20,149 nucleotides of DNA from positions 1-20,149 of IMG/VR virus record IMGVR_UViG_3300046517_000280; one strand, given 5' to 3'. This DNA comes from a virus. Positions 387 through 13,557 of the stretch are shown here, one piece after another (position 1 is the first letter of the stretch; every line of letters starts with the position of its first letter). A program made the position numbers and the translations under genes. The notes beneath the pieces were generated by a model. It did not search any database. It saw only the letters and a program-made list of their open reading frames with translations, and was not told the origin of the DNA.

Positions 387-791
387 GTGCCGGTCAGTAA
401 GCTTCACAGCAAGTATTCAGGGGCGCCTGCGCCTGCGTTGATGCCGATCAAATCGCGGGCATCCGCCGCGAGCCAGGCGCGCCGGCCGTCGCACAACAGA
501 CCCGAGCCAAAAGGTCCAAGACCCATCATCGATCAGCGCATCCGCGAGCGCATCCAGGCAGCTGCGATTGTCAACATCTTGACAGAGCACGTCAAAGGGA
601 AACGAAAGATGCGCGCTACCCAAGTCCGCGCCGCGCTAGGATTACTCGCGAAAGTCCTGCCCGATCTACAGACGATCGACTTGGCCGCGCAGGTCACCGT
701 GCGCCATGTAGTGAGAGACGAGCCTTTGAGCGTCGAGGAGTTTGCCCGTCAATACTGCGATCCACCGGTCATCGATCTGAAGCCGAATTGA
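387..791 (+). CDS. Putative terminase small subunit-like DNA-binding protein
   Basis: The 134-residue product is basic at its N-terminus (about residues 25-60, rich in Arg, Lys, Ser, Pro). It then has a helical segment, about residues 66-100, with the pattern KRKMRATQVRAALGLLAKVL followed by PDLQTIDL. A 'basic, then T/AQVRAA..LL.KvLPDL' arrangement is one I associate with small terminase or packaging-initiation proteins of proteobacterial phages, and the position ahead of the large terminase agrees. A small terminase binds the packaging site and feeds DNA to the large subunit. The start is uncertain: GTG 387 gives the longest frame and ATG 441 would remove 18 residues; neither has a clear Shine-Dalgarno. 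About 600 bases, including a 362-base non-coding stretch, separate it from the large subunit, which is unusual. It could instead be a regulator with the same fold. Confidence 0.5.
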   Translation: MPVSKLHSKYSGAPAPALMPIKSRASAASQARRPSHNRPEPKGPRPIIDQRIRERIQAAAIVNILTEHVKGKRKMRATQVRAALGLLAKVLPDLQTIDLAAQVTVRHVVRDEPLSVEEFARQYCDPPVIDLKPN

Positions 792-1153
792 GGGGCGAGC
801 TGCTAGCCCTAATGCGACATTATCGGTAGTCGACGTCTAAGTCGTTGACATCGTTGCATGTTTATCCCGCGGTCTGCCCGGCTCCAGTCACAACTCCAGT
901 CACTTCGCTCAGCGAGCGGCCTCGGCGGGTCACAGTAGAGATCAGACCAAGCGCCGCGACCAGGTCAGGCCTCGGAGGGCCTGGTGCGAGGGGCTGGGGC
1001 CGGGCTGGGCTGGGGGAGGGGCGGGGAGGGGCCCCCTCCGGGACCGGGGGGCCGGGGACCGGGGATGGACCGCCAGATCCGGCTGCGCGAGCGCCCGCCC
1101 CCTTCCCACGCGGAGCAGATAAAAACGCACCCAACCACATTGGAGGAATACTG
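792..1153. other. 362-base stretch without a convincing gene
   Basis: A frame is open from 845 into the next gene, but its translation is Gly/Pro/Arg low-complexity and would bury a Tat signal 103 residues inside a protein, so I treat it as non-coding. It holds a direct repeat CTCCAGTCAC (882-891 and 894-903, period 12), a small hairpin CGCTC-AGC-GAGCG (906-918), an inverted repeat CAGGCC/GGCCTG (966-971/978-983), a dense G-tract block (990-1064) and a near-palindrome GGAGGGGCCCCCTCC (1025-1039). A TTGACA at 845-850 resembles a -35 box but has no good -10 at 16-18 bases. A packaging site, a regulatory leader or both could lie here. Confidence 0.6.
990..1064 (+). repeat. Cluster of twelve G-tracts (potential G-quadruplexes)
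   Basis: The + strand carries eight runs of three to five G within 990-1031, separated by only one or two bases. Four more runs at 1040-1042, 1046-1051, 1054-1057 and 1061-1064 are separated by two or three bases. The second set contains the direct repeat GGGACCGGGG at 1040-1049 and 1055-1064. The spacing fits the usual G-quadruplex rule (four G3+ runs with loops of 1-7) three times over. The block lies about 90 bases upstream of the start at 1154, on the coding strand, so it would also be present in the mRNA leader. Confidence 0.75.
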
Positions 1154-1396
1154 ATGAATACGACACGACGCGGATTGTTCGGCTGGCTCGCCGGAACGGC
1201 TGCTGCGGCGGTCGTGGCGCCCGCGCTCGTGCAGGCGGCGGTTGCGGAGGCGCCTGTCGGCATGCCTCCTACCGGCGACTGGAACGAGGACGCCTGGCAA
1301 CCGCTCGCCGACGACGGCTCGCACTCGCATGCCTTCCTGACCGACGAGCTGCCCTCTCACACGCACTCGTTCCACTCGTTCCCGCGCCATGCTTGA
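1154..1396 (+). CDS. Small Tat-exported histidine-rich protein
   Basis: The start ATG 1154 is chosen because GGAGGA (1142-1147) lies six bases ahead and because it puts a signal peptide at the very N-terminus. The 80-residue product opens with TRRGLFG (twin Arg at residues 5-6), a hydrophobic stretch at about residues 10-28, and AxA-type cleavage options near residues 26-31. This is a standard twin-arginine signal. The remaining roughly 50 residues are acidic, then histidine-rich: six His between residues 57 and 79 (SHSH, SHTHSFH, RHA), which could bind metal. The gene overlaps the large terminase by 8 bases (ATGCTTGA), implying translational coupling. A Tat substrate inside a packaging operon is odd. 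It may be a moron that alters the host periplasm, an exclusion factor or a lysis helper; its function is unknown. Confidence 0.8.
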   Translation: MNTTRRGLFGWLAGTAAAAVVAPALVQAAVAEAPVGMPPTGDWNEDAWQPLADDGSHSHAFLTDELPSHTHSFHSFPRHA

Positions 1397-2858
1397 TCTA
1401 CCTGAAAAGGTCGTGTGGAGCCCGCAGGAGGGCCCGCAGCACGTCCTGTGCAAATGTAGTCTTGGCGAAGTCTTCATGGGCGGGGCGCGCGGCGGCGGCA
1501 AGACCGATGGCGTGCTCGGCAAATGGGCCGCGAAGGAGGCGCGCTGCGGGCCAGCCTTCAACGCCATGATGTTCAGGCGCACGACGGTGTCGTCGACCGA
1601 CGCCATCGACCGCTCGAAGGAGATCTACCGGCCGCTCGGCGGGCATTTCAACGAGGCGAAGCTCACCTGGCGCATGCCCAATGGCGGGCGGGTCGGCTTC
1701 GGCTACCTCGACGGGGTCGACGACGCGGCCGAGTATCAGGGCCGCAACCTGACCGACGCCTGGATCGAGGAGGCGGGGCAATATCCGACACCAGATCCGA
1801 TCTTCCGGTTGTTCGGGGCGCTGCGCTCGGCCGGCGGCGTGCCGGTGCAGCTGATCCTGACGGGCAACCCCGGCGGGCCTGGGCAGAGCTGGATCAGGGA
1901 CCGCTACGAGATGGTGCCCTTTCCCAAGGCGCCTAAGATCTTGCTCAAGAGCCTGCCGGACGGCACCCGGCACCAGGTCGCGGTGATCCCATCGCGGCTC
2001 GGCGATAATCAGATCCTGCTGAGACAAGATCCAGGCTATGCGTCGAGGCTGACCATGGTCGGCAATCCGACCCTGGTGCGCGCCTGGCTCGAAGGCGATT
2101 GGTCGGCGATCGAGGGTGCCTTCTTCACCGAGTGGGAGGAGCGTCGGCACGTCATCCCGGCCTTCGAGGTGCCTCGGCACTGGCTGCGCTTCCGCTCGAT
2201 GGACTGGGGGTCGGCCTCGCCCTTCTCGATCGGCTGGTGGGCCGTCGTCTCCGACCGCTACCAGCTCAAGGATGGTCGGACGCTGCCGCGCGGCGCGATC
2301 GTGCGCTATCGCGAATGGTATGGGGCGCGGAAGGTCGGCGAGAGCTGGACGGGGCTGAAGCTTCCCAACGAGGCGATCGGCGCCGGCATCGTCGAACGCG
2401 AGAAGGGTGAGCGCATCGCCTACGGGGTGCTCGATCCGTCTTGCATGAACCAGTCGGGCGGCCCCTCGATCTATGAGCAGATGCGGCAAGGCGCGCGCCA
2501 GGCCGGCGGCTCGCTCTTGTTTCGCGAGGCCGACAACACGCGGGCTCCCAAGCGCGGGCCGATCTCGGGCTGGGGTGCGCTGCGCGAGCGCCTGGTCGGC
2601 ACCGACGAAGCGCCGATGCTCTTCGCCTTCGACGTCTGCAAGCACCTGATCAGGACGCTGCCGATGATGGAGCACGACGCCGACCGGCCCGAGGATATCG
2701 ACACCGATGCCGAGGACCACGCGGTCGACGAGTGCCGCTACGCCTGCCTGTCGCGGCCTTGGGTCAGGCCGCGCCCGGTCGTCGAGGTGGTCAAGGCCGG
2801 CAGCGGCTACAGCCGCGACAAGGTCGACCGCCGGCCGCTGGTCGTGACGGATATGTGA
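1389..2858 (+). CDS. terL: Terminase large subunit (packaging ATPase/nuclease)
   Basis: The 489-residue protein shows the two-domain plan of large terminases, the motor that pumps DNA through the portal and cuts it. The ATPase domain has a Walker A GGARGGGKTD (residues 31-40), a Walker B-like segment with acidic pair DAWIEEAG (123-130) and a coupling motif LTGNPGG (157-163). The RNase H-like nuclease domain supplies candidate metal-binding acids at D272 (SMDWGS), D349 (VLDPS) and D443/D447 (EDHAVDECRYA). Length is normal for the family. The start overlaps the stop of the Tat gene; there is no clear Shine-Dalgarno, so initiation is probably coupled. The stop overlaps the next ATG as TGATG. Confidence 0.95.
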   Translation: MLDLPEKVVWSPQEGPQHVLCKCSLGEVFMGGARGGGKTDGVLGKWAAKEARCGPAFNAMMFRRTTVSSTDAIDRSKEIYRPLGGHFNEAKLTWRMPNGGRVGFGYLDGVDDAAEYQGRNLTDAWIEEAGQYPTPDPIFRLFGALRSAGGVPVQLILTGNPGGPGQSWIRDRYEMVPFPKAPKILLKSLPDGTRHQVAVIPSRLGDNQILLRQDPGYASRLTMVGNPTLVRAWLEGDWSAIEGAFFTEWEERRHVIPAFEVPRHWLRFRSMDWGSASPFSIGWWAVVSDRYQLKDGRTLPRGAIVRYREWYGARKVGESWTGLKLPNEAIGAGIVEREKGERIAYGVLDPSCMNQSGGPSIYEQMRQGARQAGGSLLFREADNTRAPKRGPISGWGALRERLVGTDEAPMLFAFDVCKHLIRTLPMMEHDADRPEDIDTDAEDHAVDECRYACLSRPWVRPRPVVEVVKAGSGYSRDKVDRRPLVVTDM

Positions 2859-3061
2859 TGCTGCACTGGGGTCTGAGGCCGGCGCCAGGCCCGCACGCGC
2901 CGATGTCCAAGGCTGAGTGCCGCCTGATGACCGAGGCCGAGGGGCGCAAGGTCGTGCTGATCACCGACCATCAGATCCATTCGGTCGACGCGGACGGGAA
3001 GCCTTGGGTGCAATGGCGCCCTGACCCGCGCTTTCCGCCGAGCCCCGCAGTGAGGTGGTGA
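2858..3061 (+). CDS. Hypothetical 67-aa protein between terminase and portal
   Basis: A frame starting at ATG 2858 shares one base with the terminase stop (TGATG) and ends in another TGATG shared with the portal start, so it is precisely fitted between two real genes; this is the main evidence that it is translated. The product has a charged core (KAECRLMTEAEGRKVVLITD) followed by HQIHSVDADGKPWVQWRPDP, which looks like a small beta-rich domain with aromatic residues. No signal, membrane segment or known family is recognised. The frame is open further upstream inside the terminase gene, but the coupled ATG is much the more likely start. Confidence 0.65.
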   Translation: MLHWGLRPAPGPHAPMSKAECRLMTEAEGRKVVLITDHQIHSVDADGKPWVQWRPDPRFPPSPAVRW

Positions 3062-5361
3062 TGCCTCCACCGATCCAGAGCAACGTCTTGCCGTTTCCGC
3101 AGCAGCCCCAGCAGCTGGGGCTGGGCGGCATGCTGCCGGCTGGCGCGGCCGGTCCAGGAATGGCGCCTCCGGTGGGCGCGGCTGGACCGGGAATGGCGCT
3201 TCCTGGCGGGGCTCCAGGGGCCGCCGGCCTCCCTGGCGCAGCTCCTGGAGCACCCCCGCCGATGCAGCCGCTGCCCGGCGCGCGGCCCGTGCCGCCGCCG
3301 CCGACCGTCTTTGCGAGGCCTCCGCTCGGCGAGGCGCCGGCCGAGGACGGGCCGCAGCTCGAACCGCCCGACGTCGAGGATCTGCGCCGGCAGTTCGAGC
3401 ACTACGTCATGCAGAAGCAGGACGAGATCGCCGAGTCGAAGACCGCGATCGAGTATTATCACGGCAAGCAGTTCAACAAGACGCAGCTGCAGACCTTCCG
3501 CGACCGCCGCCAGGCGCCGATCATCTTCAACCGCATCCGGCCCAAGGTGAATGCCATCGTGGGGGTGCTCAAGAAGATGCGCGGCGACCCCAAGGCCTTC
3601 GGGCGCAACGCCGCCGACGAGGCCGGCGCGGAGCTTGCGACGCAGTGCGTGCGCTATGCGCTCGATGCCTGCCGCTGGGATGCGCACGAGTCCGAGGTGA
3701 TGACCATCGGCTGCGCCCACGGCATCGTCGTCGCCGAGCTGGGGCTGACGCCGGGCGACAAGGGCGACCCCGACCCGGACGTCGCTGGCGTCGACCCCCG
3801 GACCTTCTTCTACGATCCGCGCAGCCTGCGCCAGGATCTCTCGGACGCCCGCTTCATGGGCACGTCGAAGTTCGTCACCCAGGACGAGTTCGAGGAGCTG
3901 TTCCCCGGCCAGGCCGGCGAGGACGGCAAGCAGGCCGAGAGCCAGTGGTCGGAGGCCTTCGGCTCGAATGGCGGCAGTGAGTCCGAGACGGAGTTCGAGG
4001 CCGACCGGCAATATCTCTGGTCGCAGGGGCGCAAGAAGCTGCGCCTGGTCGAGCACTGGTATAGGACCGCGGGCGAGTGGCGTTACTGTTTTTACGCCGG
4101 TTCTACCATCTTGGACTATGGCGTTTCACCTTTCTACGATGAGCGTGGCCAGACAATTCCGCGCTATATTGGCTTTGCCGTCTCGATCGACGAGGAAGGC
4201 GGGCACTATGGCTTCGTGCGCCACCTGAAGGGTCCGCAGGACACCATCAACTTCGCCAAGATGAAGATGGCTTGGATCGCGGCGGCCCGGCAGCTGAAGG
4301 TCGGGCGCTCGGCGCTCGGCGGTGACGGCCAGGACATCGAGACGAAGCGCACCGAGGCCGCGCGCGCCGATGGCGTGCTCATCTGGGAAGTCGACCCGAA
4401 CGAGATCGAGGTCATCACCCAGGACTCGGAGTTCCTGAAGCAGGCGCAATTCTACGCCGACGCCAAGCAGGAGATCGACGGCTTCGGTCCCTCGCCGGCC
4501 TTGGTCGGGGCGCAAGGCGCGCCGGCCGATATCTCGGGCCGTTCGCTCGCCATGCAGCAGCAGGCCTCGCTGGCCGAGCTGGGGCCGTTCTTGGAGAACT
4601 GGAACAACTGGCGCCTGCGCATCTACCGCGCCATCTGGGTGTCGCAGCAATGCTACTGGCAGGCCGAGCGCTGGCTGCGCGTCACCAAGGACCAGCTCAC
4701 GAGCCAATACATCGCCATCAACCAGGGCACCGTCGACCAGTGGGGCCGGCCGGCGATCGTCAACCAGATCGGCAACCTCGACGTCGAGATCCTGATGGAC
4801 GAGGGCCCGAACAGCGCCAACGTGATGGGCGACTCGTTCGACTTGATGTCGGCTCTCGCGCTCAAGGGCATGCCGATCCCGCCGCCGGCCCTCATCGAGC
4901 TGTCGCCGCTGCCGCGCTCGGAGAAGGACAAGCTCAACGCCCTGATGAACCAGCCGGACCCGGCCAAGCAGGCGATGCAGCAGGCGATGGTCGACAAGAC
5001 GAAGAGCGAGGCGACCAAGAACCTGGCATCGGCCCAGGCGAGCCAGGTCGACTCCCAGGTCAAGATGCAAGGCGCGCCGGCCGACGCCGGGCTGAAGCAG
5101 GCGACTGCGCTGCACAAGATCGCCCTGACCCAGCACGAGACGCGCAAGGCGCACGCCACCACGGCCCAGTCGGCGATCGACATGCACGCCGCCATGCAGC
5201 CGCAGGAAGGGCAGCAGGCGCCGATGTCGCCGGCATCCGCCAGCGCCGCGCCTGGGCCGCCGATCCCCGGCGGGCCGCCCGTGCGGGGCCCTGACGGGCA
5301 TTTCTACGTCCACGCCCCGCATCCCGGCGGCGTCTATCAGCGGGTGCTGATCAAGCCGTGA
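3061..5361 (+). CDS. P22-like portal protein
   Basis: The 766-residue protein would form the dodecameric ring at the capsid vertex through which DNA enters and leaves. The conserved portal region starts near residue 104 (DVEDLRRQFEHYV) and includes YYHGKQFNKTQLQ, RQAPIIFNRIRPKVNAIVG and KKMRGDPKAFGR (about residues 132-182), which I associate with P22-type portals. The length is close to the 725 residues of P22 gp1. ATG 3061 is chosen over GTG 3055 because of GAGGTG at 3052-3057 and the TGATG coupling. Residues 20-95 are a Gly/Pro/Ala collagen-like tail that is not part of the core fold. The C-terminal 150 residues are helical and Gln/Ala-rich, as in the portal barrel, and end with a Pro/Gly segment. 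Residues 341-374 use an anomalous codon set. Confidence 0.9.
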   Translation: MPPPIQSNVLPFPQQPQQLGLGGMLPAGAAGPGMAPPVGAAGPGMALPGGAPGAAGLPGAAPGAPPPMQPLPGARPVPPPPTVFARPPLGEAPAEDGPQLEPPDVEDLRRQFEHYVMQKQDEIAESKTAIEYYHGKQFNKTQLQTFRDRRQAPIIFNRIRPKVNAIVGVLKKMRGDPKAFGRNAADEAGAELATQCVRYALDACRWDAHESEVMTIGCAHGIVVAELGLTPGDKGDPDPDVAGVDPRTFFYDPRSLRQDLSDARFMGTSKFVTQDEFEELFPGQAGEDGKQAESQWSEAFGSNGGSESETEFEADRQYLWSQGRKKLRLVEHWYRTAGEWRYCFYAGSTILDYGVSPFYDERGQTIPRYIGFAVSIDEEGGHYGFVRHLKGPQDTINFAKMKMAWIAAARQLKVGRSALGGDGQDIETKRTEAARADGVLIWEVDPNEIEVITQDSEFLKQAQFYADAKQEIDGFGPSPALVGAQGAPADISGRSLAMQQQASLAELGPFLENWNNWRLRIYRAIWVSQQCYWQAERWLRVTKDQLTSQYIAINQGTVDQWGRPAIVNQIGNLDVEILMDEGPNSANVMGDSFDLMSALALKGMPIPPPALIELSPLPRSEKDKLNALMNQPDPAKQAMQQAMVDKTKSEATKNLASAQASQVDSQVKMQGAPADAGLKQATALHKIALTQHETRKAHATTAQSAIDMHAAMQPQEGQQAPMSPASASAAPGPPIPGGPPVRGPDGHFYVHAPHPGGVYQRVLIKP
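3142..3203 (+). repeat. Tandem 33-bp repeat in the portal N-terminus
   Basis: Two 29-base copies, starting at 3142 and 3175, differ at only a few positions and are spaced by 33 bases. They encode two successive 11-residue units GAAGPGMAPPV and GAAGPGMALPG, in phase with the portal frame. They sit in a Gly-X-Y-like stretch and probably arose by in-frame duplication. Confidence 0.8.
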
Positions 5362-5647: not shown

Positions 5648-8107
5648 ATGGCGGAATACGTCCTCGATCCGGTCCCGCATGACCCGTGGACGGTGCCGCA
5701 CGCGCATGAGCCGCTGATCGTCCCGGTCTACCCGAGGAACTATCCGCCGCCCAAGCCTTTGCCGGCGCCAGTCGAGGAGGGCACGCCGGCTTTAAGCCCC
5801 GCAGCGCCACCCACGGCGGCACCAGGCGGCGGCCCTGCCGCGCCCGGCGAGGCCCAGGATCTCGGGCCGCTGGTCGACAAATGGTTCCCCGGCCCGGCCG
5901 AGACGCCAGGCCAGCGAACGCCGGACGAGCTGCCCCCGCCGCCGGCCGGCATCGAGGCGCCCAATTTCTCGCTGCAGCCGGTCGGGCACGATCCGTTCGA
6001 CACCAAGCTCTACCTCGCGGCCGAGCGCGCCAAGCAGGCGATCGAGCGCCAGGCGCAGGCCCCGGTGCAGATGGGCTCGCCGCAGTCGCCCGACCCGTTC
6101 ATGGAGCACGAGATCGGGCAGCCCGCCTGGCCCTACGCCCAGAGCCCGCAGGACATGGATCTGCAGCAGGCCCTCGCGGCGGCCGGCGGCGGCCCCGACT
6201 TCCCCGCGATGGCGCCGCAGGCGCCGACCCCGGTCCTCCCGACCTGGATGGACCCGCAGAAGCAGGAAGCCTCGATCGGGCCGCAGCCGGCCGACTGGCA
6301 GAAGGGGCTCGAAGCGACCTTGCGCTCGATCGCGCCGCAAGGCTCGGGGCTCAGCGACACGGCGTCGGCGATCCCGAGCCTCATCGGCATGACGCCGGCC
6401 GGCTCGGTCGCGGATGTCGGGCAGTCCTGGAACCGGGGCGACCTCGCGGGCGTCGGCATGGCGGCGCTGGGCGCCCTGCCGGGTGTCGGCACGGCCGAGA
6501 GGGTCGGCGCCAAGGCCTTGACGGCGGCCGAGCGGATCGCGGCCAGGCGCGAGGCGGCGGGGCTCACGCGCACGCTCGAAGCCAACGCCCTCCCCGCAAC
6601 GGCGCCGAGCCTCGCCGAGAGCCTAGCGCCGAACGCCGCGCCCGAGATCGCGGGCGCCGGCCGCCTCGGCATCGGCGGCAACCAACCGCCACGCCAGGTG
6701 CCGCTGCTGCGCCAGCCGAACCCGTTCTCGCCGACGCTCGACACGATGCATCCCGACGAGGCGGCGTTGACGGTCAACGACATCCTGCAGCCCGACTATC
6801 CGGCGATCAAACGGGTCAAGGGGCGCGGGGTGGACACGATCGCGGGCGAGCTGGATCAACGGGCCCAGACCGCCTTGCGCAATATGGGGGTGCGCGGCGG
6901 CAAGATCTCGGGGCCCGACCCTGCGACGGTCGCCATCATGGCGCGCACCGCGCCGGGGCAGCCGCTCGGCCGGCTCGGCAACACCGACGAGCTGCTCGCT
7001 CGCAACCTCGCCTCCGAGGCGCGGGAGGCGATGCGACGCGGCGGCACCACGGCGGTCGACTGGTATTCGTCGAAGTTCGACAACGCCATGAAGATCGCGG
7101 CGCTGATGCACCCGGAGATCGCCACCGACCCGCATTCCGCGACCGCCTACCGGGCCGCGCTCGCCATCACCAGTCAGGGCGAGACGGTGCCGGCGAACGT
7201 CAAGCTCGCGAATGAGGTTTACGACCGCTTCAAGGCCTCGTCGGTCAATCCCGCCGAGCGGCGCTTCGACGCGGCCGACATCGAGGCCAAGGCCAAGAAC
7301 GGCCCGGCGATGAAGGCCAATCTCACCAAGATGAACGACCTACTCGAAGCCATGGACCCGGCGGGCGTGACCAGGCTCCTGAGCGAGGAGATGTCGGTCA
7401 GGGATTGGGCCAAGCGGGGCTTCAAGGTCGAGGGCGAGCTGGCCGACACGCTCGTCCACGGCTCGGCCATTCTCGGGCCTAAGATCGGCGGCGGCTTCTA
7501 CCAGAACCTGTCGGGCAACTACAATCCGACCACCTTCGACCTGTGGTGGATGCGCAAGTTCGGGCGCTCGACCGGCAATCTGGTGGGGCTCCAGGACACG
7601 ACCAAGCAGCGGGCCCGCCTGGAGAGGCTGCTGGAGGCGGCGAAGGGCGACACGACCTTGCCCCCGGAGATCCAGGCGCTCGCCGCCCTGCCCGTGCCCA
7701 AGACTCAGCCGGGCCTATTCCGGCGGGCGGACGACATCGCTTCGGCGCATGAGCGCCACTACAGCAAGAACCAGGCCGACTACGCCTCGAAGAAATACCC
7801 CGACCGGCCGCTTCAGAAATCGGACCTTGCCAAGGCCTCGATCGCCTACCGGGACGCCATCACGGGGATCAACGAGGCCCCCACCAGCGGCGGCCAGCGC
7901 AACTGGATGCGGGCCGTGACCCAGAGGGCCCGTGAGATATTGGCGGAACACGATATTCACATGACCAATGCCGATCTGCAGGCGACGCTGTGGTATCCAG
8001 AGAAGGATCTTTATGCTAAGCTTGGAGGCAAGCCCAGTGAGGGCTTGAATGTGGACTACGAGAGCGCGCACCGCGATCTCGCCCGCTCAAGGGGGATCTT
8101 AAAATGA
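5648..8107 (+). CDS. Large 819-aa phage protein, polyvalent/ejected-protein-like
   Basis: GAGGG at 5636-5640, seven bases ahead, supports ATG 5648. Residues 1-215 are Pro/Ala-rich and probably disordered. Residues 228-285 form a small-residue amphipathic or membrane-active stretch (AGVGMAALGALPGVGTAERV). From about residue 360 to the end it is a folded helical region with distinctive motifs: AVDWYSSKFDNAMKIAALMH (469-488), an ILGPKIGGGFYQNLSGNYNP segment (608-627), TTFDLWWMRKFGRSTG (628-643) and ADLQATLWYPEKDLYAKLGG (775-794). I recall similar segments in very large polyvalent proteins of phages and mobile elements and in predicted internal virion proteins, but cannot name the family with certainty. 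It sits between portal and scaffold, where P22 has no such gene. It may be a co-injected effector or an internal core protein. It overlaps the next gene by ATGA. Confidence 0.8.
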   Translation: MAEYVLDPVPHDPWTVPHAHEPLIVPVYPRNYPPPKPLPAPVEEGTPALSPAAPPTAAPGGGPAAPGEAQDLGPLVDKWFPGPAETPGQRTPDELPPPPAGIEAPNFSLQPVGHDPFDTKLYLAAERAKQAIERQAQAPVQMGSPQSPDPFMEHEIGQPAWPYAQSPQDMDLQQALAAAGGGPDFPAMAPQAPTPVLPTWMDPQKQEASIGPQPADWQKGLEATLRSIAPQGSGLSDTASAIPSLIGMTPAGSVADVGQSWNRGDLAGVGMAALGALPGVGTAERVGAKALTAAERIAARREAAGLTRTLEANALPATAPSLAESLAPNAAPEIAGAGRLGIGGNQPPRQVPLLRQPNPFSPTLDTMHPDEAALTVNDILQPDYPAIKRVKGRGVDTIAGELDQRAQTALRNMGVRGGKISGPDPATVAIMARTAPGQPLGRLGNTDELLARNLASEAREAMRRGGTTAVDWYSSKFDNAMKIAALMHPEIATDPHSATAYRAALAITSQGETVPANVKLANEVYDRFKASSVNPAERRFDAADIEAKAKNGPAMKANLTKMNDLLEAMDPAGVTRLLSEEMSVRDWAKRGFKVEGELADTLVHGSAILGPKIGGGFYQNLSGNYNPTTFDLWWMRKFGRSTGNLVGLQDTTKQRARLERLLEAAKGDTTLPPEIQALAALPVPKTQPGLFRRADDIASAHERHYSKNQADYASKKYPDRPLQKSDLAKASIAYRDAITGINEAPTSGGQRNWMRAVTQRAREILAEHDIHMTNADLQATLWYPEKDLYAKLGGKPSEGLNVDYESAHRDLARSRGILK

Positions 8108-9596: not shown

Positions 9597-10811
9597 ATGG
9601 CCGAGACCTATAATAACGTTAACCTCGAACTCATCAAATGGCAGAAGCGAGTTACTTGGACTTTTCTTCGCGCTTCTCGCTTCGACAACTACACCGGCGC
9701 CGGGCCCATGAACATCATCCAGCGGGTGATGGACCTCGCTGGCGACGGCAAGCAGGTGAACGTCCCCCTCATGGATCAGCTGCGCGGCGACGGCGTCGCC
9801 ACCGGCCAGCTGGTCGGGCACGAGGAGCAGCTCGACAACTACGGCATCCCGCTGTGGGCCGACTGGCTCAGGCACGCGGTGTCGTTCAAGAAGAGCAGCA
9901 CCAAGGAGTCGGCGATCAACATCCGCGAGCAGGGCACGCCGGCCCTGCAGTCGTTCATCAAGCGCTGGCGCCGCGACGACATGGTCGATGCGCTGCTCTC
10001 GATCCCGACCGCGACCCAGCCCGCCAACTTCCACACCGACCCCGGCAACCGCATCAACGGTCTGCGCTGGAAAGACGCGAGCGCCGGCCAGCGCAATTCC
10101 TGGCTGACGGCGAACAACGATCGCGTCGTGTTCGGTTCGAAGCTGTCGAACACCGTCGCCGGCAACGTGGCGTCGAGCTTGTCGACCATGGTGGCGGCGA
10201 CCGACAAGATGACGGCCGGCATGGGGCGCCTGCTCAAGCGCCAGGCGCAGCAGACGACCGCCATGGCCAGCTGGCCGGCGATCCGGCCTTACCAGCTCGC
10301 GGGCGACCAGGAGTGGTATGTCTGCTTCATGGGCTCGCGCGCCTTGCGCGACCTCTCGAACGACCCCGAGATGGCGAACGCCAACCTCTATGCCCGCAAC
10401 CGCGAGAACGGCAATCCTCTCAAGGAGAACCCGATCTTCACGGGCGCCGGCTTCCTGAAGGACGGCATCATCTACCGGGAGATCCCGGAGATCGACACGC
10501 GCTACATCCTCGGCACGGGCTCGGTGGGTGCCTCGTCGAACGGCCCGCTCGCGGGCGTCGGCGGCGCCTCGGCCGACGTCTCGCCGATCCTGATGTGCGG
10601 CATGTCGGCCTACGCCTATGTGGTCGGCCAGATGCCCAAGAGCACCAACCGCGACGAAACCGATTACCAGTTCCTGAAGGGCATCGGCGTCGAGGCGCAA
10701 TACGGCTACGGCAAGATCGCCAAGGCGCCGCCGGATCAGGCCGGCGCGGTGGGCAATCTCAAGGATTGGGGCGTCGTCACCGGCTTTGCCATCTCGATCC
10801 CTGACGCATGA
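9597..10811 (+). CDS. Major capsid protein, N4 gp56-like family
   Basis: The 404-residue product is the shell protein. Residues 22-105 carry the signature region of the N4 gp56-like (DUF4043-type) coat family: FLRASRFDNYTGAGPMNIIQ, then DLAGDGKQVNVPLMDQLRGD, GVATGQLVGHEEQLDNYG and LRHAVSFKKS. The later part is mixed beta with the expected RLLKRQAQQ and WYVCFMGSRALRDL segments (about residues 205-255). GGAG at 9587-9590 provides the ribosome-binding site, within a hairpin. The gene is followed at once by a strong terminator and is preceded by the scaffold, so the pair can be expressed at its own level. The coat type differs from that of P22, although the portal and tail genes around it are P22-like. 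Confidence 0.9.
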   Translation: MAETYNNVNLELIKWQKRVTWTFLRASRFDNYTGAGPMNIIQRVMDLAGDGKQVNVPLMDQLRGDGVATGQLVGHEEQLDNYGIPLWADWLRHAVSFKKSSTKESAINIREQGTPALQSFIKRWRRDDMVDALLSIPTATQPANFHTDPGNRINGLRWKDASAGQRNSWLTANNDRVVFGSKLSNTVAGNVASSLSTMVAATDKMTAGMGRLLKRQAQQTTAMASWPAIRPYQLAGDQEWYVCFMGSRALRDLSNDPEMANANLYARNRENGNPLKENPIFTGAGFLKDGIIYREIPEIDTRYILGTGSVGASSNGPLAGVGGASADVSPILMCGMSAYAYVVGQMPKSTNRDETDYQFLKGIGVEAQYGYGKIAKAPPDQAGAVGNLKDWGVVTGFAISIPDA

Positions 10812-11744: not shown

Positions 11745-12115
11745 CCTTCATCGTCACGCCGACGCGCGACTCCACCTGGATCGCGACGAAGGCCTTGACC
11801 CACATCATTCGGGCGTCGGTCGATAACCCGGCGACGCCCGAGGATCTGACGGTCGCCCTCGACGAGCTGGACGCGCTCGCGGCGAGCCTCGCCTTGCGCG
11901 GCGTCATCACCATCGCCGACCTCGACGCGGTGCCCTCGGGCATCGCCGAGGAGCTGTCGCGCCGCCTGGCGGTCGCCCTCAAGACCTCCTTCGGCATCGA
12001 CACGCCGCCCGGTCAGGACACGCTCGGCTCGCCGGCCGCGATCGAGCTGAACCTGCGCCGCATGGACGCCATCGCGGCGCAGGGCTTCGGGCCCGCCAAG
12101 GTGTCGTTCTACTGA
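11741..12115 (+). CDS. P22 gp4-like head-tail adaptor (tail accessory factor)
   Basis: The 124-residue helical protein follows the pattern of P22-type gp4 adaptors, which bind under the portal ring after packaging and create the seat for the tail hub. Visible features are an N-terminal segment (MTFIVTPTRDSTWIATKALT), a central helix pair (PEDLTVALDELDALAASLAL), a second helix (IAEELSRRLAVALKTSFGID) and a C-terminal 'AIELNLRRMDAIA' helix. It is shorter than P22 gp4 (166 residues). The strongest support is its position directly before the gp10-like gene, with ATGA coupling upstream and TGATG downstream. Confidence 0.7.
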   Translation: MTFIVTPTRDSTWIATKALTHIIRASVDNPATPEDLTVALDELDALAASLALRGVITIADLDAVPSGIAEELSRRLAVALKTSFGIDTPPGQDTLGSPAAIELNLRRMDAIAAQGFGPAKVSFY

Positions 12116-13557
12116 TGCCGACGCCGTTGGTGATCCCCTTCCCGCAGTCGTCGCAGCCCGGCGATCTGCCGGGCGAGGGCGTGGGACGCTTGGTCAATCG
12201 CTACTATGAGGTCGACGGCGCCATCGATCTGCATCGTTGGGTGCCGGGGTTGGCGCCGTTTGCCGATGTCGGCATCGCCATCCCGCGCGGCCAGATCGAC
12301 GTCAACGGCACGCTCTATGTCGGCCGCAACAACGCGGCGGCGCGAGTGTCGACCTCGGGTGCCGTGACGGCGCTCACGGGCGCGCTGAACGGCTCGGACC
12401 TGGTCACCTGGGCCAAGAACAACCGGAGCCCGACGCCGGATCTGGTCGCAGTGTCGGTCGCCAACGGCGCTTATTCGGTGTCGTCGACCGCCGTCACCGC
12501 CTACCCCGACGCCAACCTCACCGGAGCGAACCAACCCAACTCGGTGTCGTTCCTCGACGGTTACTTCCTGTTCACGCTCCCGGATGGGCGCATCTTCGCC
12601 TCGGGCGTCAACGACATCTGGGTGAGCGACTCGGACCACACGCAGAACGCCCTGTCCTTCGCCCTCGCGGATCTCTCGGGCGGCCTGGTGCGCGGCACCT
12701 CGGCTGGCGGCTTGTTCTACGCCTGGGGCAAGAAGGCTTGCACCGTCTATTCCGACGCCGCGACCTCGCCCTTCCCGTTGGCGCGCTCGGGCGTCATCCA
12801 GGTCGGGCTCCTCGGGGCGAGCGCCATCACCGGCTTCGACCCTGGCTGGGGACTCGCGCAATACTTCGTGGCGACCGACAACACGGTGCGCCGGGTCGAC
12901 GGCTTCGCGGCGGTGCCGGTCAGCAACCTCGATGTCGTGCGCGACATCGCGGCCGAGGCGGACAAGACCCAGATCGAGATGAGCTGCTACGTGATCGGCG
13001 GGCGGCCGACCGTCGTCGTCAAGGGTCCGAATTTCTGTTGGGAGCTGAACGCCGCCACCGGCTTCTGGAACGAGCGCCGCAGCGCCAATCAGAACACCTG
13101 GCGCGCTTCGCGCTCGATCTACTTCAATGGCAAATGGTATTACGGCGATATGCTGTCGAACCAGCTCGCCGAGATCTCGTCTTCAGTATTCGACGAGCTG
13201 GGCGCAGCTTTCACGGCGCGGCTCGAAAGCGGGCCGGTCAAGCAATTCCCGCACCGCATCCAATGCGTCGCGGCCTATTTCGACTTCACCACCGGGATGG
13301 GGCACGCCGGCACCTCGGACTCAACCGACCCATCCTTGTGGATCTCGACGAGCCGCGACGGCGGTGCCACCTGGTCGACGCCGCTGGTGCGGCGCGGCCT
13401 CGGGCAGCAAGGCGACTTCCAGCGCCCGATCAGCGTCAATCGCATCGGCGGCATCGCCACCCAGCACGGCATTCGTTTTCGGCTCGACACCTCCTCGCCG
13501 ATCTACTCGACCTTCCGGGGCGGGCGCTGTGACGTGAACCTTCTGGGGCCGCCCTGA
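12115..13557 (+). CDS. P22 gp10-like tail hub / packaged DNA stabilisation protein
   Basis: The 480-residue product is nearly the length of P22 gp10 (472) and has its style: an N-terminal GVGRLVNRYYE (22-32) and HRWVPGLAPF (40-49) segment, then repeated strand-turn blades with short aromatic motifs (GTLYVGR, DGYFLFTLPDGR, GGLFYAWGKKACTVY, QYFVATDNTVRRVDG, FCWELNAATGFWNERR, GKWYYGD), as in a beta-propeller hub. It would plug the portal after packaging and hold the rest of the tail. The C-terminal part (about residues 385-470) reads like a second beta domain with WISTSRDGGATWST. The start is coupled to gp4 by TGATG, and the stop is coupled to the next ATG in the same way. Confidence 0.85.
   Translation: MPTPLVIPFPQSSQPGDLPGEGVGRLVNRYYEVDGAIDLHRWVPGLAPFADVGIAIPRGQIDVNGTLYVGRNNAAARVSTSGAVTALTGALNGSDLVTWAKNNRSPTPDLVAVSVANGAYSVSSTAVTAYPDANLTGANQPNSVSFLDGYFLFTLPDGRIFASGVNDIWVSDSDHTQNALSFALADLSGGLVRGTSAGGLFYAWGKKACTVYSDAATSPFPLARSGVIQVGLLGASAITGFDPGWGLAQYFVATDNTVRRVDGFAAVPVSNLDVVRDIAAEADKTQIEMSCYVIGGRPTVVVKGPNFCWELNAATGFWNERRSANQNTWRASRSIYFNGKWYYGDMLSNQLAEISSSVFDELGAAFTARLESGPVKQFPHRIQCVAAYFDFTTGMGHAGTSDSTDPSLWISTSRDGGATWSTPLVRRGLGQQGDFQRPISVNRIGGIATQHGIRFRLDTSSPIYSTFRGGRCDVNLLGPP

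Follow-up and report, generated by a model that had tools for sequence, protein, structure and literature searches.

There is still no agreement on how a phage terminase recognizes its own DNA. In the literature, pac sites are described as often lying in or near the terminase genes (PMC5217972). For example, the pac region of the Bacillus phage SPP1 spans the promoters, the ribosome-binding site and the start of terS and includes spaced repeats (PMC6316719, PMC4737164), and the pac of P22 comprises 22 bp inside its terS gene (PMC9611059). The latter source also states that pac-type TerS proteins bind DNA weakly in vitro, with no clear preference for particular sequences. As to cos phages, GC-rich ends are known, such as GGGCGGCGACCT in lambda and GCCGGCCCCTTTCCGCGTTA in PaP3 (PMC9611059, PMC7672466).

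The present analysis covered a window of 20,149 bases, i.e. the complete source record, which is of the linear end type and probably represents a fragment. Between a TerS candidate and TerL it carries a conserved G-rich element (Table 1). The pac sites of the Bacillus phages SPP1 and SF6 are similar to this element, because they also adjoin terS, overlap expression signals and comprise several spaced boxes within a small region. However, these sites are situated before terS and reach into it, whereas the element found here lies between terS and terL; the descriptions consulted do not present them as rich in G-tracts, and their function has been experimentally shown, whereas that of our element is predicted from sequence. 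P22 likewise has a single packaging signal at the terminase genes, and the window encodes a P22-like portal, but the conserved site found here begins approximately 205-240 bases after terS in apparently non-coding DNA. The cos regions of lambda and PaP3 are also GC-rich, present in single copy and composed of several parts; in contrast, the contigs studied here pass through the element. Finally, the Pseudanabaena phage Pam5, which has the TerL nearest to that of the window among isolates (58.3%), shows the same gene order terS-terL-portal, but its TerS-TerL gap amounts to only about 40 bases; hence, Pam5 has no room for such an element. Our preferred but still tentative reading, to which we assign a probability of roughly 0.4, is that the element might be a single-copy, cis-acting DNA site for pac-like packaging initiation or terminase control that acts as duplex DNA.

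Table 1. Position of the element, its parts and neighbouring genes in the window.
Feature	Coordinates	Strand	Remarks
TerS candidate, 134 aa	387-791	+	conserved in 5 of 5 lineages; local similarity and position
G-cluster, 12 G-tracts	990-1064	+	orthologous site in each of five lineages has 8-12 tracts
GGAGGG inverted-repeat arm, partner CCCTCC in block 1	1015-1020	+	
Block 1, GGGGCCCCCTCC	1028-1039	+	12 of 12 columns invariant in five lineages
Block 2, GGGACCGGGGATGGACCGC	1055-1073	+	18 of 19 columns invariant; a single exact copy in each record
Block 3, CCCTTCCCACGCGGAGCAGATAAAAACGCA	1100-1129	+	25 of 30 columns invariant; one copy per record
Ribosome-binding sequence GGAGGA	1142-1147	+	conserved 3' of block 3 (alignment)
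80-aa ORF, Tat-like signal	1154-1396	+	shared by window, L004 and L005; missing in L006 and L009
TerL	1389-2858	+	PF04466 E 3e-5; phrog_979 E 7e-27; phrog_2 E 1e-25
P22-like portal	3055-5361		PF16510 E 6e-81
Major capsid	9597-10811		
Head closure	12115-13557		

The G-rich part of the element had been noticed in a preliminary description as a cluster of twelve G-tracts (runs of three or more G) within 75 bases, and a recount gave the same number and the same loops. The first eight runs occupy positions 990-993, 996-999, 1002-1004, 1007-1009, 1012-1016, 1018-1021, 1023-1026 and 1028-1031 with loops of 1-2 bases, CCCCCTCC separates the last of them from the run at 1040-1042, and this run together with those at 1046-1051, 1054-1057 and 1061-1064 forms the second part with loops of 2-3 bases. 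The placement of the cluster between the terminase genes was also correct, with the TerS candidate upstream and TerL downstream, and the G4 scoring that had been proposed ranked it first in the window, with a G4Hunter value of 3.0 over 25 bases compared to 1.68 for the second site. No other G-tract cluster of the window is as dense, and the densest C-tract cluster has 6 tracts. In 600 Markov simulations (200 each of the orders 1, 3 and 4) a maximum of 9 tracts was obtained on either strand, and none of 1000 dinucleotide shuffles of the TerS-TerL gap reached 12 tracts. When the gaps of the relatives were shuffled in the same way, the observed count was reached in 7 of 1000 cases for locus L004 and in 0 for L005, L006 and L009, as for the window. 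An identical copy of the cluster occurs in IMGVR_UViG_3300047316_000251 (L003), which matches the window by 100% over 2613 bases; hence, the cluster is not an assembly error of one contig. It exceeds chance, is real and is conserved at its place in the relatives.

These relatives were obtained from IMG/VR by searches with TerL and portal. Six of the loci obtained extend sufficiently upstream and have a G-cluster just before TerL, with 12 tracts in L003 and L006, 8 in L004, and 9 in L005, L008 and L009. Since L003 represents the same virus as the window and L008 belongs to the L009 population (99.95% over 1905 bases), both were omitted from the lineage count, as were L002 and L007, in which the contig continues upstream of the TerL match for only 105 and 7 bases, respectively. 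Thus, four further lineages, whose TerL genes are about 74-80% identical to that of the window in DNA, make five with the window (window, L004, L005, L006 and L009); perhaps only four are independent, because L004 and L009 share much of the cluster sequence. The comparison with related phages that had been suggested in advance therefore shows that G-richness is kept at the same place, while the spacing of the G-runs is not conserved: counts vary from 8 to 12, and the cluster upstream of block 1 has a mean pairwise identity of 39% with a lowest value of 28% among the five lineages. Unconserved spacing was one of the two observations named beforehand as speaking against the initial idea.

Conservation is concentrated in three near-invariant blocks, not mentioned in the preliminary description, that overlap the 3' end of the G-cluster and continue past it, namely GGGGCCCCCTCC, followed by GGGACCGGGGATGGACYGC and by a 30-base block with CGCGGAGCAGMTAAAAAC. 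In the alignment of the five gaps, 55 of the 61 block columns are invariant, compared to 37% of the fourfold sites in TerL (n = 182) and 26% of those in TerS (n = 31); the blocks are therefore under strong selection. Block 2 follows block 1 at a distance of 27 bases in the window, compared to 26 in L004, L005, L006 and L009, and CGGAGCAG of block 3 follows block 2 at 56 bases in all five. The sequences in between are variable, with 2 of 15 invariant columns in the first spacer and 3 of 26 in the second one. Such a constant block spacing with free spacers is typical of a protein-DNA site and not of a gene. All five lineages have a GGAGGG 12-16 bases 5' of block 1 that is complementary to the CCCTCC of this block, and in L009 the inverted repeat, as read from the sequence, extends to 14 bp (GAGGGGTGGGAGGG / CCCTCCCACCCCTC). 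Block 2 contains GGACC twice, 11 bases apart, and this spaced pair occurs once in each of six records scanned; for block 3, no further copy with fewer than six mismatches was detected in the scanned records. The complete trio is single-copy in each of the 6 records that were searched whole, only one of which is near complete; they include a contig of 42,187 bases with ends overlapping over 159 bases at 99.4%. One copy per record also rules out a dispersed phage promoter motif.

Scanning IMG/VR with blocks 1 and 2 in combination returned 6 contigs, and block 3 returned the same 6 and nothing else. Block 2 alone matched 11 contigs, five of which lacked the other blocks within the 300 bases read around the match; these five were taken as chance, because the other blocks are missing and they are absent from the combined scan. 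Two matches to the block 3 pattern in bacterial genomes came without block 2 and were likewise read as chance. No match was found by a DNA search of the phages collection with positions 700-1400, and a TerL profile search of bacterial genomes gave no relative. Of the 23 TerL loci examined, 2 were too short for a decision; the element is present in 6, and block 3 is missing in 15, including L012, L017 and L047 with less than 300 upstream bases. At the end of the L047 contig just upstream of TerL, positions 1-130 consist of poly-G/poly-C junk, probably a sequencing artefact that was possibly provoked by a G-rich block; therefore, its 7 G-tracts before TerL were not counted.

Protein-coding blocks appear unlikely from their pattern of change. 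Frames are open through the blocks in all five lineages, as is common at 63-69% G+C, and in the window the stretch from block 1 to block 2 differs in length by one base, which shifts the frame. In block 1 every codon position is frozen, as is almost every one in block 2. Where the second half of block 3 varies, the changes do not fall on third positions of the open plus frame. It might also be possible that the blocks form an internal late promoter or the site of another phage or host regulator, with the G-cluster as a by-product of slippage at a G-rich repeat. The A-rich core of block 3 (GATAAAAAC) and the free drift of the G-cluster sequence would fit to this scenario, but a scan over the element in the window and L009 found no sigma-70-like promoter, one copy per record is unlike a family promoter, and the tract counts hold at 8-12 despite the drift; we consider it quite improbable. 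An intrinsic terminator (GC hairpin plus T run) was also searched for on the plus strand of window positions 600-1500, with no hit.

The preliminary description had proposed that the cluster could fold into up to three stacked quadruplexes. Strict G4 patterns indeed occur at 990-1031 and 1040-1064 and at the same place in all six other element-bearing records, in each of which this cluster is the top G4Hunter site as well. However, the predicted gain from the G4 term, calculated with RNA energies, is uneven among the relatives. It amounts to -40.9 kcal/mol in the window and -27.3 in L005, where 0 and 1 of 100 shuffles, respectively, gained as much; it is marginal in L006 (-14.4; 5 of 100) and L009 (-7.6; 10 of 100) and absent in L004 (-0.7; 26 of 100), where Watson-Crick pairing does as well as a G4. 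The gain is thus strong in two, marginal in two and absent in one of the five lineages. Moreover, the inverted repeat of GGAGGG and the block 1 CCCTCC competes with a G4. Judged by these energies, a G4 is likely to be possible in the window virus; it is not the conserved property of the element, and the quadruplex explanation is secondary. This bears on the idea that a true DNA quadruplex, or an R-loop with a G4 on the non-template strand, stalls the polymerase, marks the packaging start or primes replication. While the ubiquitous G4 patterns and the large gains in the window and L005 speak for it, it is in our opinion unlikely given the weak or missing gain in the other lineages, the unconserved spacing of the G-runs and the fact that the C-rich partner in block 1 is invariant but the G-runs are not. 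For the replication-priming variant, the GC skew of the 42,187-base relative reaches its minimum about 6 kb away from the element; hence, there is no origin signal at the element.

As the main alternative, the element may serve as an mRNA leader for terL, and for the Tat-like ORF in lineages that have it, and would then set the output of terL relative to terS. The G-rich strand could fold co-transcriptionally into a hairpin or an RNA G4, alternating with pairing of the C-run of block 1 or block 3. Several observations are in line with this. The tract cluster is dense on the coding strand every time, block 1 is able to pair with the upstream GGAGGG or with block 2 in all five lineages, CCCTCCCC of block 3 can also pair with a GGAGG ribosome-binding sequence, and the element is close to the conserved GGAGGA, whichever gene comes next. 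In the window, this gene is the 80-aa ORF, which starts with MNTTRRGLFGWLAG, sits between the ribosome-binding sequence and TerL, and overlaps the TerL start; it has no Pfam match, and PHROG gave a weak tail-fibre match alone (E 9e-4). The promoter-like and terminator-like leader upstream of terS (see below) suggests in addition that terS and terL may be carried on one late transcript through the element. However, a structured RNA leader was not recovered by stability, covariation or Rfam. Plain RNA folds of the window, L009 and L006 were no better than shuffles (z +1.07, -1.24 and +0.63), the covariation term of the RNAalifold consensus was unfavourable at +5.4 kcal/mol, with the invariant pairs being uninformative, and Rfam returned no match at the gathering score in the five sources window, L004, L005, L006 and L009. 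We regard the leader function as possible but doubtful; it stays close to our preferred reading because only 12 bases separate the end of block 3 from the conserved ribosome-binding sequence in the window.

A further argument comes from the gene upstream. Assignment of 387-791 as TerS is that of a candidate, made from position and one local similarity. The C-terminal part of the protein weakly matches the Pam5 TerS with E 0.002 in a single comparison. It also shows 61.9% identity over 42 aa to a protein in the Bradyrhizobium elkanii prophage ppBeUSDA76-2, which abuts a TerL of an unrelated kind. Nothing convincing was found in Pfam or PHROGs even at lax limits, a PDB sequence search gave nothing useful, and the AlphaFold model from the 5-row TerS alignment was poor (pLDDT 59). 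Nevertheless, all 6 contigs with the element carry TerL plus this TerS, whole or partial, with the last codons remaining in IMGVR_UViG_3300047319_000560, and an IMG/VR search with the TerS alignment returned exactly the five element-bearing contigs that reach upstream over TerS. Locus L010 has a TerL with 73% best-segment identity, compared to 74-75% for L006-L009, but a different upstream ORF that overlaps TerL, and the element is absent. Therefore, the element goes with this TerS type, as follows from the TerS search and from L010 lacking both. The element is conserved, keeps its block spacing, is present once per record and occurs only with this type of TerS, although the co-occurrence may reflect a single event in a small clade.

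Returning to the pac-like packaging site, a role that the preliminary description had also considered, the location between the TerS candidate and TerL and the presence of a conserved sequence in single copy in six records agree with such a function. A P22-like portal is a sign of headful packaging, and from its portal the packaging module of the window looks to be of the headful type. In the proposed mechanism, an element of about 140 probably non-coding bases in the terS-terL gap would start with the G-rich inverted-repeat arm, followed by the three spaced blocks. TerS, whose gene lies directly upstream, would attach to the spaced blocks and, once bound, would position TerL for the initial cut of the concatemer; the GC-rich repeat might supply a stiff or extrudable feature. 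In this scheme we infer TerS binding, the cutting and duplex DNA, instead of RNA, as the active form. Some points argue against it. The end of the element lies shortly before the ribosome-binding sequence for the following gene, which would be expected of a translational element, and a duplex-binding site does not require that G-richness is kept without sequence. Furthermore, a frozen sequence read by TerS is less expected, because little preference for particular sequences is reported for pac-type TerS proteins in vitro.

Two other packaging functions could be considered. The element could be a cos site that generates cohesive ends, with cutting at block 1 and its dyad GGGGCCCC and binding at blocks 2-3. 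GC-rich ends are known from cos phages, and the element is single-copy with fixed block spacing; however, the contigs of L003, L004, L005, L006, L008 and L009 run unbroken through the element, which is weak evidence in a metagenome, and the P22-like portal points to headful packaging, so that a cos site seems very improbable. Least probable of all, late transcription might open an R-loop or quadruplex in the G-rich array, and TerS/TerL might start packaging at the site thus opened and partly single-stranded, which, if true, would tie packaging to late gene expression.

Regarding its wider meaning, this divergent phage group offers, in a compact and near-invariant element that occurs once beside terS, a clean candidate for the pac-like site that we prefer, and the five lineages provide a natural mutational series with fixed block spacing. 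If it acts as a terL leader instead, it would represent a new control point in the late operon. Among the matches listed in searches of the open-access literature, the titles and abstract starts mentioned no G-rich or G4 element between terS and terL.

A second conserved and non-coding element was observed upstream of terS. At 264-352 of the window, TTGAC[AC]-17 bases-[GC]ATGCT is followed by TGTGGCATCGTCAT and a terminator-like GCCCGCC/GGCGGGC hairpin. It is conserved in the window, L004, L006 and L009, and its 19-base core occurs in four IMG/VR contigs only. This arrangement resembles either a late promoter followed by a short leader with a terminator, for which lambda pR'-tR' is a comparison, or a small RNA. 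The genes terS and terL may be co-transcribed, in which case the element between them would be internal to the late transcript.

Some variation was also seen in TerL itself. In L009 (about 5896-7518), the TerL frame is open upstream to an ATG inside block 2, which would extend the N-terminus, and in L004, L005 and L006 this ATG is followed by a TGA two codons later. Compared to the window gene, TerL in L004, L005 and L006 contains an insertion between the ATPase and nuclease parts, which is largest in L006.
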